Part shown: positions 1 to 5,570 of the stretch, one piece after another
Numbering within the stretch: position 1 is the stretch's first letter
How the letters are laid out: the number at the start of each line of letters is the position of its first letter
Program-made: the position numbers and the translations under genes
Assembly: GCA_031459765.1 (NCBI GenBank)
Contig: JAVKHY010000008.1
Span: 1-64,000 of the forward strand
Origin: Armatimonadota bacterium
GTDB taxonomy: Bacteria; Sysuimicrobiota; Sysuimicrobiia; Sysuimicrobiales; Kaftiobacteriaceae
Direction: 5' to 3'
DNA length: 64,000 nt
The notes under the pieces: model-generated
The model's database searches: none
What the model was told of the DNA's origin: nothing
The model's input: only the letters and a program-made list of their open reading frames with translations

Positions 1-1
1 A

Positions 2-256
2 CTCCTCCACTCCAATCTCCGAGAAGAGATTATGAAGTTAAAACAACAGCCAGGAAAAAGTATTTTTATTGGCGGGCTGAACATCGCATCACAAGTTGCA
101 GAATGGAATCTCATCGACGAGTATCACTTTGTCGTTCACCCGATTATTGCGGGAAAAGGTCCCCGCTTGTTCCAATCGATTGAGAACCTTAAATTAAATC
201 TTGCTGGGTCAAAAACGTTTCGTTCGGGCGTTGTTGCGTTACATTACAAGAAATAA
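2..256 (+). CDS. RibD C-terminal / dihydrofolate-reductase-family protein, C-terminal part (cut by window edge)
   Basis: The reading frame is open to the left edge, so only the last 84 or so residues are present; the ATG at 32 is probably internal. The segment with IGGLN, then LIDEYHFVVHPIIAGKGPRLF and a final hydrophobic strand matches the C-terminal half of the RibD_C/DHFR-like superfamily (YyaP/YwjB type NADPH-dependent reductases). The substrate of these stand-alone members is usually unknown. Base composition is far AT-richer than the chromosome, as expected for foreign cassette cargo. The stop lies 15 bp before the first attC. Confidence 0.75.
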   Translation, partial: LLHSNLREEIMKLKQQPGKSIFIGGLNIASQVAEWNLIDEYHFVVHPIIAGKGPRLFQSIENLKLNLAGSKTFRSGVVALHYKK

Positions 257-270
257 AAATGAAAAAAGCG

Positions 271-402
271 GGCTAACACCGCGTGCAGCGGACGGGCGGG
301 GGCATTCGCCCCGCCCAAAGGGATTCAGCCCCTTCGAGCATTTTCTACCTTTGGCATTTTTCCGCCAAATCCCCCGTCCGCCGCTAACGCCAGCCGTTAG
401 GC
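271..402 (+). other. attC site 1
   Basis: Starts with GGCTAAC (271-277) and ends with GTTAGGC (396-402), 132 bp. Inner arms GCAGCGGACGG (285-295) and CCGTCCGCCGC (374-384) pair at 10 of 11 positions. The long central part gives a large loop, within the known attC size range. It terminates the RibD-C-like cassette. Confidence 0.8.
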
Positions 403-447
403 TGACAAGAGCGGGGTGTTAGACTGGTCTGTGTAAACACGAGTTAG
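400..447 (+). repeat. 48-bp repeat with nested integron core sites, copy 1
   Basis: Identical base for base to 3417-3464. Holds GTTAGAC at 418-424 and, across its end, GTTAGAC at 443-449, so three GTTRRRY boxes follow each other within 54 bp counting the end of attC 1. The interior can fold as GTGTT...AACAC with an inner AGAC/GTCT pairing. It has no coding capacity. Probably a remnant or very small gene-less unit bounded by core sites. Confidence 0.8.
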
Positions 448-472
448 ACGGCCGGATTGAGCGGAGATGACC

Positions 473-1594
473 ATGGGCTTCTACATCAGGAAGGCGCTCA
501 GAGTTGGCCCGCTTCGATTCAACCTGTCAAAGTCGGGCCTTGGCGTTTCCGTCGGGATCAAGGGCCTGCGGCTCGGCACAGGACCACGCGGAAACTATGT
601 CCACATGGGCCGAGCAGGGCTCTACTATCGCAAGAGCCTCAATGTGCCCGAGGGAAGGGCAGCCGGCCGGCCGAACACACCTCAGCTATTGCCTCGCGAG
701 CCTGCGCACCTCGGGGAGCCTCTTGGCACGGTGGGACCCCTACAGGATGTGGAAAGCGGCTCAGTCCACCAGATGGTTGATGCCTCGAGCGCGGAACTGC
801 TGCGGGAGATGAACGAGAAGAGGAAGAAGGCCCGACTCCTACCGGGCGCGACCGTTCTGTGCGTCATGGTGGTGCTGCTGTTGATTGTCGGCAGTGCGCC
901 CGTCTGGCTGGTCGTGCTGTTCGGCGCCTTGGCCATCGGAGTCTGCTGGTTGGTATTCATAAAAGATGAGCTCCGAAAGACGACCGTTATCCTCTACGAC
1001 CTCGAACCGGAGGTCGAAACCGCATACGCACAGCTCCACGATGCGTTTGGCGTATTGCGTTCTTGCTCTCGGACATGGCACGTCGAAGCCCGCGGGGACG
1101 TCCGAGATCGCAAGTACCACGCGGGGGCTAGCGGGGTTGTGAAGCGCAAACAGATTACCTTGAGCACCGGTGCGCCGCCATTTGTCAAGACGAACATCGA
1201 GGTTCCGCTCGTCCCAGTCGGCCGGCAGGTGCTTGCGTTCATGCCGGATCGACTTTTCGTGTTCGATTCGGCCGCAGTCGGCGCCATCAACTACTCAGAT
1301 CTCGCGCTTGATGTCGCCGAGATCCAGTTCGTTGAAGAGGAGGTTGTGCCTCAGGACGCGACGGTGGTCGGGAAGACGTGGCGTTACGTCAACAAGAAGG
1401 GCGGTCCCGATCGTAGGTTCAAGGACAATCGTGAGATCCCAATCTGCGCCTACGAACAGATCCATCTGTCGAGCACGACGGGGCTCAACGAGGTAATCCA
1501 GGTATCACGGCGGGGAGCTAGCACCACCCTGAGTCAGGCCCTGTCGTTGATGCGGAGCCTGCGGACAGATGAAAGCGCCGCGCCGGCCGTCTAA
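473..1594 (+). CDS. DUF4236 domain membrane protein (cassette gene)
   Basis: The N-terminus (MGFYIRKALRVGPLRFNLS, then SGLGVSVGIKGLRLGTGPRG) is a DUF4236 domain, a short beta-rich module of unknown function found at the start of many bacterial membrane proteins. Two hydrophobic segments at about residues 122-165 form a helical hairpin, followed by a soluble C-terminal domain of about 200 residues that I do not recognise. ATG 473 is preferred over ATG 467 because the GGAG at 463-466 is well spaced only for 473 and family members begin MGF. The TAA stop lies inside the R'' box of the next attC. No function can be assigned. Confidence 0.78.
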   Translation: MGFYIRKALRVGPLRFNLSKSGLGVSVGIKGLRLGTGPRGNYVHMGRAGLYYRKSLNVPEGRAAGRPNTPQLLPREPAHLGEPLGTVGPLQDVESGSVHQMVDASSAELLREMNEKRKKARLLPGATVLCVMVVLLLIVGSAPVWLVVLFGALAIGVCWLVFIKDELRKTTVILYDLEPEVETAYAQLHDAFGVLRSCSRTWHVEARGDVRDRKYHAGASGVVKRKQITLSTGAPPFVKTNIEVPLVPVGRQVLAFMPDRLFVFDSAAVGAINYSDLALDVAEIQFVEEEVVPQDATVVGKTWRYVNKKGGPDRRFKDNREIPICAYEQIHLSSTTGLNEVIQVSRRGASTTLSQALSLMRSLRTDESAAPAV

Positions 1595-3979: not shown

Positions 3980-4045
3980 CATGCGCTTCCACCTGACGCC
4001 GCTCCGCTGCGCTTCGCGGCGCAGGTGAAGCGCAAGCCGTCAGGC
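3974..4045 (+). other. attC site 5
   Basis: GGCTAAC (3974-3980) to GTCAGGC (4039-4045). Arms TGCGCTTCCACCTG and CAGGTGAAGCGCA pair completely apart from one extra C. The 72-bp length is typical. Confidence 0.9.
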
Positions 4046-4079
4046 GGCCGAGAGCAGGTCATGCAGGAAGGAAGGACTC

Positions 4080-4451
4080 ATGCTGACTACATCCAAGTTC
4101 ATCGCCTTCGCGGCAACCGGCGATGCCGCGCGCGCTCGCAACTTCTACGAACAGGTGCTGGGCCTTCGCCTCCTGGCCGATGAGCCGTTCGCGCTGGTCT
4201 TCGACGCAAACGGGGTAACCCTGCGCGTGCAAAAGGTTCAAGAAGTAAAGCCAGCGCCATATACCGCCCTTGGCTGGGCCGTCTCTGGTATCCGATCTAC
4301 CGTCCAAGCGCTCGGCGGCCGTGGTGTTGCTTTCGAGCGTTATCCTTCACTGTCACAAGATGATTTGGGAGTCTGGACCTCCCCAAGTGGAGCACGGGTC
4401 GCATGGTTCAAGGATCCGGACGGCAATGTATTGTCCCTCACGCAGTCCTGA
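4080..4451 (+). CDS. VOC-superfamily (glyoxalase/bleomycin-resistance-like) protein (cassette gene)
   Basis: 123 aa, one VOC module pair. ARNFYEQVLGLRLL near the start and WFKDPDGNVLSLTQ at the end are the hallmark strands of the fold; metal-ligand positions are only partly kept, so it may be a binding rather than a catalytic member. VOC proteins include glyoxalases, fosfomycin- and bleomycin-resistance proteins; nothing here decides between them. AGGAAGG lies just before the ATG. The TGA stop overlaps the degenerate R'' box of the next attC. Confidence 0.85.
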   Translation: MLTTSKFIAFAATGDAARARNFYEQVLGLRLLADEPFALVFDANGVTLRVQKVQEVKPAPYTALGWAVSGIRSTVQALGGRGVAFERYPSLSQDDLGVWTSPSGARVAWFKDPDGNVLSLTQS

Positions 4452-4523
4452 GCGTTCATCGTGCGGTCACCGAAGCGGCCGATGCGCGCGCTTTCCGGCG
4501 CTCAACGCACAACAGAGTTAGGA
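4446..4523 (+). other. attC site 6 (degenerate)
   Basis: TCCTGAG (from 4446) mirrors GTTAGGA (4517-4523) imperfectly; inner GTGCGGTCA partly pairs with TCAACGCAC. Boxes have drifted from consensus, so this site may be weak. Placed by its position between two cassette genes. Confidence 0.6.
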
Positions 4524-4529
4524 GTCCAA

Positions 4530-5396
4530 ATGCGAGTCGCGTTGGTCGGAGCAACTGGAGTCCTTGGCCGGAACGTAGTTCCCATGCTCATAGAGAACGG
4601 CCACACGGTCCGGGTACTTGTCCGAGCGGAGGCCCAAGCAAGGCATCTTGAACAGGCTGGCGTCGAGACCGCCCTTGGTGACATCTTAGACCCGGGCACC
4701 CTGCTCCCAGTCACTTCCTCAACGGATGTAGTCCTTCACTTGGCCACCGCGATCCCGCGCGAAGGATCCCGAGCAACCTGGGCGGCCAATGATCGCATCC
4801 GACGAGAGGGCACTCGCAACCTGCTGGACGCATCCCTTCAGAACGGCGTTCCCAGGTATGTGCAGCAGAGCATAACGCTTCTCTACGGGGAGAGCACCGA
4901 CGTCCCTGCGAACGAATCGTCGGTCCTTCGTCCCGCTCCCTTCATCCAGTCCGCCGCCGACATGGAGGAGATGGTTCGATCATCTCCGTTGGACTGGTGC
5001 ATACTCCGAGGGGGCCTGTTCTATGGTCCAGGTACCGGCACGGACGACGGCTGGCGCAAAGCAGCTCGCGAAGTCACATTGCGCCTGCCTGCGGACGGCT
5101 CGGCTTTCATTTCTCTGATCCACGTGGTCGATATGGCTCGCGCCATCGTCCGGTCCGCTGAGTCTGCCCCTATACGAAGCGTCTTCAACGTTGTTGACGA
5201 TCAGCCTGTGACCTACCGGGACTTGTTTAGGTACATAGCCGCCCAGGAAGGCAGTCTCCCCCCTGAACCTGGAGGCGATACCACGCTGCCTTCGCTCGCC
5301 TGCTCGAACGCAAGGATTCGTTCAGAACTGGGATGGTCGCCTGTATTCAAGACGTTTCGCTCTGGTCTCTCGGGGTCCCACAGAGCATCGGCCTAA
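4530..5396 (+). CDS. NAD(P)-dependent epimerase/dehydratase-like protein (cassette gene)
   Basis: 288 aa from ATG 4530. VALVGATGVLGRNV is the extended-SDR dinucleotide-binding GxxGxxG motif. The rest follows the epimerase family: VVLHLATAIP, a Ser/Thr-rich SITLLYGES region in place of the usual YxxxK active site, and VHVVDMARAIV-like strand (LIHVVDMAR). The catalytic Tyr-Lys pair is not evident, so it is an atypical SDR. The start is set by GGAG at 4521-4524; an upstream in-frame ATG at 4461 lies inside the attC. The TAA stop is in the R'' box of the last attC. Confidence 0.85.
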   Translation: MRVALVGATGVLGRNVVPMLIENGHTVRVLVRAEAQARHLEQAGVETALGDILDPGTLLPVTSSTDVVLHLATAIPREGSRATWAANDRIRREGTRNLLDASLQNGVPRYVQQSITLLYGESTDVPANESSVLRPAPFIQSAADMEEMVRSSPLDWCILRGGLFYGPGTGTDDGWRKAAREVTLRLPADGSAFISLIHVVDMARAIVRSAESAPIRSVFNVVDDQPVTYRDLFRYIAAQEGSLPPEPGGDTTLPSLACSNARIRSELGWSPVFKTFRSGLSGSHRASA

Positions 5397-5570
5397 CAAC
5401 TCGCTGGAGCCGACCTGGCCTGCCGCGTCCCGCTGTCCTCCGCCGGCTGTGGAGCTCATTGTGGAAGATTCGATCCTTTGATGCGCAGAAGGATTGGGGA
5501 TGGTCGAGGGACGCGGGGAGGGTTTTCTTTCTCAGTCGGAAGGCAGATGGGGAAAGCGATGGCGGCTAAC
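5391..5570 (+). other. Truncated attC remnant(s), right end of the cassette array
   Basis: GCCTAAC at 5391-5397 followed by ACTCGCTGGAGCCGACC is a typical attC left half, but no matching right half or GTTRRRY box follows at a plausible distance. A second isolated GGCTAAC stands at 5564-5570. I read this as eroded attC left halves marking the junction with the core chromosome. Confidence 0.6.

Follow-up and report, generated by a model that had tools for sequence, protein, structure and literature searches.

An integron cassette array with internal attI-like modules beside topA in a Sysuimicrobiota genome

In this study, we have analyzed a window of 64,000 nucleotides from an Armatimonadota bacterium (assembly GCA_031459765.1) that starts at base 1 of its contig (JAVKHY010000008.1, positions 1 to 64,000; contig C8 of the source genome, G000), and we conclude that positions 1 to 5570 almost certainly belong to an integron cassette array, of which they form the distal part. 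Within this array, two 47-bp modules each lie exactly between an attC site and the start of the next cassette, and we hold with high confidence that they are copies of the integron attachment site attI. The interpretation that we favor, with a probability of about 80%, is that of a sedentary integron at the dprA/topA locus, a placement seen in a congener, with blocks of cassettes headed by attI and produced by recombination between attC and the first direct repeat of attI (DR1).

The source genome consists of 29 contigs and 2.81 Mb, with a completeness of 99%. The relatives of its topA gene are found in Sysuimicrobiota/ANGP1 genomes, including RBG_19FT_COMBO_69_19 (85% identity); ANGP1 is Candidatus Segetimicrobium genomatis, of the phylum Candidatus Sysuimicrobiota (formerly CSP1-3; Bacillati/Terrabacteria). 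Comparisons were made within the 43 genomes of the order, which are also the full phylum set and which comprise G000 and 42 others.

The attI modules and attC sites

The modules form the center of a direct repeat (positions 395 to 450 and 3412 to 3467) that is located between attC1 and cassette C2 and between attC4 and cassette C5. Copy 1 (397 to 443, plus strand) contains DR1 (TTAGGC), a second repeat, DR2 (GTTAGAC), and the core G at 443, with C2 starting at 444; copy 2 (3414 to 3460, plus strand) is the same over the 47-nt motif that was searched. The copies differ at DR1 (TTAGGC versus TTCGGC) and at their right junctions (TTAGAC versus TTAGCC), and the cassettes that follow them also differ. 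Outside the source genome, the 47-nt core has exactly one occurrence in the order, in G005, downstream of the C terminus of an intI gene. Identity to this attI is 47/47, compared with 35/47 and 23/34 for the attI sites of the congeners G001 and G002. Homologous motifs occupy the stretch right after the intI stop codon, immediately ahead of the first cassette, in G026, G011, and G038, and a more diverged one does so in G019; further diverged copies were found in G023 and G017. A degenerate attI pattern matched 9 of the 43 genomes, its reversed control matched none, and no match was obtained in viral contigs. The original prediction, which described an array of seven cassettes abutting topA, had overlooked both modules, as well as a relic of dprA (5738 to 5782) that is described below.

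Across the phylum, attI has a common layout: an upstream repeat (DR0), which in many cases is accompanied by a TATAAT-like box, followed by DR1 (GTTAGGCTGAC), DR2 (GTTAGRCTGG), and the core GAG/TTAG, where the slash marks the boundary. Both buried copies start exactly at the G/TT of DR1; the sequence to their left is attC, and DR0 is absent. DR0 (GTTAGGCTGACC, then the TATAAT-like box) is conserved upstream of attI at five loci (L097, L098, L100, L184, and L271) and may be a cassette promoter, which the buried copies do not have. A promoter scan returned two matches compared with 1.1 expected, and none of them was within the attI copies.

The module could be read instead as a geneless mini-cassette with its own attC-like end that was inserted twice, and both of its ends are indeed cassette-type G/TT boundaries. 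However, neither module has an attC-like fold (z-scores of -0.3 and +1.1), and the module is identical or homologous to the attI found downstream of intI in relatives. On the basis of its position in those intI-bearing genomes, this reading was rejected, and we regard it as barely credible.

Sites of the attC type were sought with a scripted scan that paired R'' and R' cores with complementary arms and scored them over 64 kb, with shuffle controls; since a loose arm-pairing version gave many chance matches in GC-rich DNA, a strict consensus version was added. The four highest scores on the plus strand in the 64 kb belonged to attC1 (271 to 402, with R'' GGCTAAC at 271 to 277; arm score, 35.6), attC2 (1589 to 1648), attC3 (2211 to 2339, with a long loop), and attC4 (3312 to 3419), whose arm score of 38.7 was the highest of all; the best other candidate reached 31.4. 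The strict R''/R' consensus combined with arm pairing was passed by attC2 and attC3, with 0 matches in 40 shuffles of 5.6 kb. Folding of the bottom strand gave z-scores of -3.9 for attC1, -4.5 for attC2, -0.4 for the long-looped attC3, -3.8 for attC4, -4.0 for attC5, and +0.4 for attC6. The attC5 site (3974 to 4045, plus strand) escaped the GTT-based scan owing to its variant R' core, GTCAGGC; its homologues in G013, G020, and G017 are 83 to 92% identical and have the core GTTAGGC. At the end of segment C7, attC7 is a 5' half-site (R'' at 5391 to 5397) that matches an attC of G013 at 37 of 39 nt, and no R' partner for it was found when one was looked for. The variable loops in the attC sites of seven relatives aligned poorly with MAFFT, and an Rfam scan of positions 1 to 8000 returned no match, a result that is uninformative about attC. 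Seven attC sites had been proposed originally, with arms pairing perfectly except for one extrahelical base at three of them; attC1 to attC5 proved intact and attC7 retains its 5' half, the sixth found no support, and each of the strong sites contains one or two extrahelical bases.

The junctions between attC and attI can be read to the base. In attC1, only the G at 396 of the R' core is its own, and the adjoining TTAGGC comes from the attI copy. Cassette C4 starts with TTAGAC, so that attC4 would be expected to end in GTTAGAC; its present end, GTTCGGC, represents the first bases of the attI copy, and this exchange of R' (TTAGAC to TTCGGC) is as expected from a crossover at DR1.

Cassette genes and their modularity

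Seven genes, all on the plus strand and belonging by Pfam to unrelated families, occupy bases 1 to 5440, as had been predicted; C1 is incomplete at the contig start. The GC content of this block is 49 to 65%, compared with 71% in the remainder of the window. Of C1, only the 3' part of a RibD_C/dihydrofolate reductase-like gene is present (2 to 256; RibD_C, 5.7e-12). The following cassettes are C2 (444 to 1642), with a DUF4236 gene at 467 to 1594; C3 (1643 to 2333), with a weak DUF5615/PIN-like gene at 1714 to 2205; C4 (2334 to 3413), with an alpha/beta hydrolase gene at 2378 to 3274; and C5 (3461 to 4039), with a DUF2321 gene at 3491 to 3979 (1.6e-63). Two segments complete the block: C6 (4040 to 4517), which encodes a glyoxalase (4080 to 4451) and whose attC (about 4446 to 4523) is degenerate or absent, and C7 (4518 to 5440), which encodes an NAD-dependent epimerase (4530 to 5396) and terminates in the half-site attC7. 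In a closure test, the first 14 nt of each of C2 to C5 were compared with the reverse complement of the R'' flank of its own attC; 12 to 13 positions matched (13 of 14 for C2), which was the maximum of each row, and C6 and C7 showed no such closure.

A DNA comparison of the cassette block with the phylum genomes gave, outside G000, short matches to recombination sites (attC2, attC3, attC5, and the attI module) that lie at other loci without the cassette genes of the window; a few relatives also gave one weak, unassigned match each. The attC2 type occurs at many loci in the phylum, with 81 to 94% identity, and the 3' half of attC3 is 89% identical to the attC of the integron at G013:C4 and its 5' half 92% identical to a sequence in G002. 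In relatives, the types of attC2, attC3, attC5, and the half-site attC7 are linked to different genes. Because it is recombination sites and not genes that are shared with the 42 relatives, the block is modular and is not a fixed core operon, the alternative against which the array had originally been set. The C5 protein had no homologue in the 42 other phylum genomes and had only five matches, all distant, in a plasmid collection, which gave no match when searched by DNA.

The first cassette after attI in G011 (L098, 10155 to 10674) encodes an apparent N terminus of a RibD_C/dihydrofolate reductase-like protein, which is of the same family as the truncated C1; the two fragments do not overlap.

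The dprA/topA locus and the integrase side

Full-length or near-full-length intI genes that scored above the curated cutoff are present in 5 of the 43 phylum genomes (G026, G011, G019, G038, and G013). Transcription of intI in relatives runs towards attI, and the cassettes continue in that direction. Together with the affiliation of topA, the full-length intI genes bear out the earlier inference that this integron array belongs to an undersampled phylum. The integrases of G026 (L097, 9609 to 10973) and G011 (L098, 8815 to 10155) have approximately 130 extra N-terminal residues before the SAM-like domain, and in G011 this stretch has a weak likeness to HARP (Pfam E value, 0.07).

On its right side, the array is followed by topA (5780 to 7954, plus strand; Topoisom_bac, 1.7e-130). 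Between them lies a relic of the 3' end of dprA (GLVRALPG*RYSRQM; 5738 to 5782, plus strand), which runs to the start of topA and aligns to a relic at the same place in the congener G002. The dprA-topA interval was compared among relatives, as had been suggested with the original prediction. In G002, the dprA stop codon is followed by the 24 C-terminal residues of intI, which are fused to dprA, and then by DR0, an attI (partly N), one cassette, an attC reduced to its 5' half, the remains of a second dprA tail, and topA. The G002 relic (L175, 17900 to 18203) is 51% identical to that genome's own dprA tail, as if the integron region had come with a different dprA. In the other congener, G001 (L184, G001:C69), attI lies directly behind dprA and no intI is present there. 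A near-identical dprA-attI-cassette contig is binned in G007 (L187, G007:C79), which belongs to a different genus; since near-identical contigs occur in two genera and G007 has a second dprA beside topA, one of the two contigs is probably misbinned.

Elsewhere in the order, contig C10 of G005 (L108) has an additional dprA that is truncated and joined to part of an intI gene. An attI comes after this fusion, a run of N separates two copies of the intI end, and the full dprA of this genome lies near the end of its contig C8. In the genus g16 (G025, L170; G028, L171), the dprA-topA interval extends over 11 to 15 kb and contains no attC by the strict scan; the interval may be a wider insertion hot spot.

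The original prediction had placed the search for intI and attI to the left of the array; the window begins at the first base of its contig, and no dprA, comM, intI, or further attI was found in the contig ends of G000 that were examined. No intI was found in this 99% complete genome, and dprA was not found either, though it is present in 36 of the 43 phylum genomes. Contig C27 of G000 ends in rnhB, which is found a short way upstream of comM and dprA in G002. Most likely, the missing integrase end, with intI, dprA, and the primary attI, lies in an assembly gap, and the array may be part of a complete integron or a cluster of attC sites lacking integron-integrases (CALIN).

In the CALIN alternative, the loss of intI has left the array frozen, and the internal attI copies, which would have the same origin as in our preferred interpretation, persist without being excised. 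The assembly formally corresponds to a CALIN, with at least two attC sites and no intI, the intI side falling in the gap. No intI was found in G000, G002 retains only the 24-residue remnant fused to dprA, and G001 has attI without intI; moreover, segments flanked by attI are unstable in the presence of active IntI1 (PMC12901181). Against this, the break in the contig falls within the array and dprA is likewise missing, so that the gap can account for the failure to find intI. We consider the chances of this alternative to be even.

Origin of the attI-headed blocks and relation to known integrons

It is well established that integron cassettes are captured by the integrase IntI, which recombines the folded bottom strand of attC with attI. 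Both types of site are present here, and the same reaction would have assembled this array, which comprises at least two blocks behind C1, namely attI-C2-C3-C4 and attI-C5-C6-C7. To generate such blocks, IntI would have joined attC to DR1, which has a GTTAGGC-type core 47 bp before the usual attI crossover, rather than to that crossover point. This may have taken place between sister chromosomes or by the insertion of a circle that carried attI and several cassettes, thereby stacking blocks with their own attI. We regard this mechanism as somewhat more plausible than its competitors taken together. Because the buried attI matches that of G005, a member of another genus, better than those of the congeners, there are hints that the blocks came from another integron lineage or that the platform was exchanged.

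Two simpler origins of the repeated attI were considered. The first is a short-read assembly artifact across the 47- to 56-bp repeat: the repeat is short and identical, a contig end is nearby, and the contigs of several relatives also end near intI. However, the copies differ in both their left and right junctions, reads of the usual length should span 56 bp, and the assembly contains no surviving primary attI that could have served as a template, which makes such an error improbable. The second, which we rate slightly lower still, is an ordinary homologous duplication of the integron platform without site-specific recombination. The partial extra copy of dprA in G005, joined to a piece of intI and to attI, indicates that parts of the platform can duplicate; however, both buried copies stop exactly at the core-type boundary of DR1, with attC directly upstream and neither intI nor DR0.

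Several points weigh against the interpretation that we prefer. The use of DR1 as a crossover point is deduced from the junctions, and the published account of attI fragments in arrays invokes the L box rather than a direct repeat (PMC12901181). IntI1 excises an attI-flanked cassette almost completely (PMC12901181), and two equal attI copies would therefore be unstable in the presence of an active integrase. Their persistence suggests that integrase activity is weak or lost here, which fits the state of intI in both congeners; indeed, the array may be inert, since intI is reduced to a remnant in G002 and is absent from the locus in G001. The assembly contains no intI, dprA, or primary attI, and integron function in this genome is thus putative. 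The attC6 site is unsupported, given its fold z-score, and the small chance of an assembly error at the repeats, though the two junctions differ, also counts here.

The array resembles the sedentary chromosomal integrons of Vibrio, Xanthomonas, and Treponema, as well as CALINs, in its unrelated genes on one strand, an attC after each gene, a fixed locus, and a base composition that is not that of the host. Unlike these systems, it resides in a Sysuimicrobiota host, has two internal attI copies, and contains attC types that are diverse and not uniform. The presence of attI sequence inside the array is reminiscent of the delta-attI-type cassettes of class 1 and class 2 integrons, which are thought to result from IntI recombination at a nonstandard point of attI and in which an attI fragment, mostly 14 to 18 nt and rarely complete, replaces attC (PMC12901181). 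Here, by contrast, attC is kept and is followed by 47 nt of attI with DR1, DR2, and the core, the junction being at DR1; since the attI copies still have attC1 and attC4 upstream of them, these junctions fall outside the delta-attI class. The orientation of the integrons in relatives, where attI comes right after intI and the cassettes run onward in the same direction, has parallels in Treponema, in which intI is transcribed towards attI (PMC3607928), and in archaeal integrons, in which attI lies downstream of intI (PMC9668308). They differ from both in belonging to another phylum and in two integrases with the N-terminal extension described above.

A list of integron-bearing phyla (PMC8618304) does not name Sysuimicrobiota, and the paper that describes the phylum (PMC11604079) makes no mention of integrons. 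Our searches of the open-access literature turned up neither a description of integrons in Sysuimicrobiota/CSP1-3 nor an example of a retained attC with attI behind it. Integrons and truncated attI sequences in arrays are already known; what is new is that, twice and in Sysuimicrobiota, an attI comprising DR1, DR2, and the core stands behind an intact attC.

In conclusion, integrons with intI, attI, and attC can now be assigned to a phylum that is widespread and uncultured, and in one genus their chromosomal site is defined. The array preserves, from nature, the apparent trace of an integrase that chose the first direct repeat of attI for its crossover. It is a tentative and rather doubtful proposition that the mobile unit is not the single cassette alone but also a block of attI and several cassettes cut at DR1; if this is true, arrays would gain internal entry sites, and blocks would cross genera with the attI of the donor. 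The role of the extra repeats of attI and the existence of multiple entry ports per array are questions that can be tested with the phylum's own IntI, attI, and attC.

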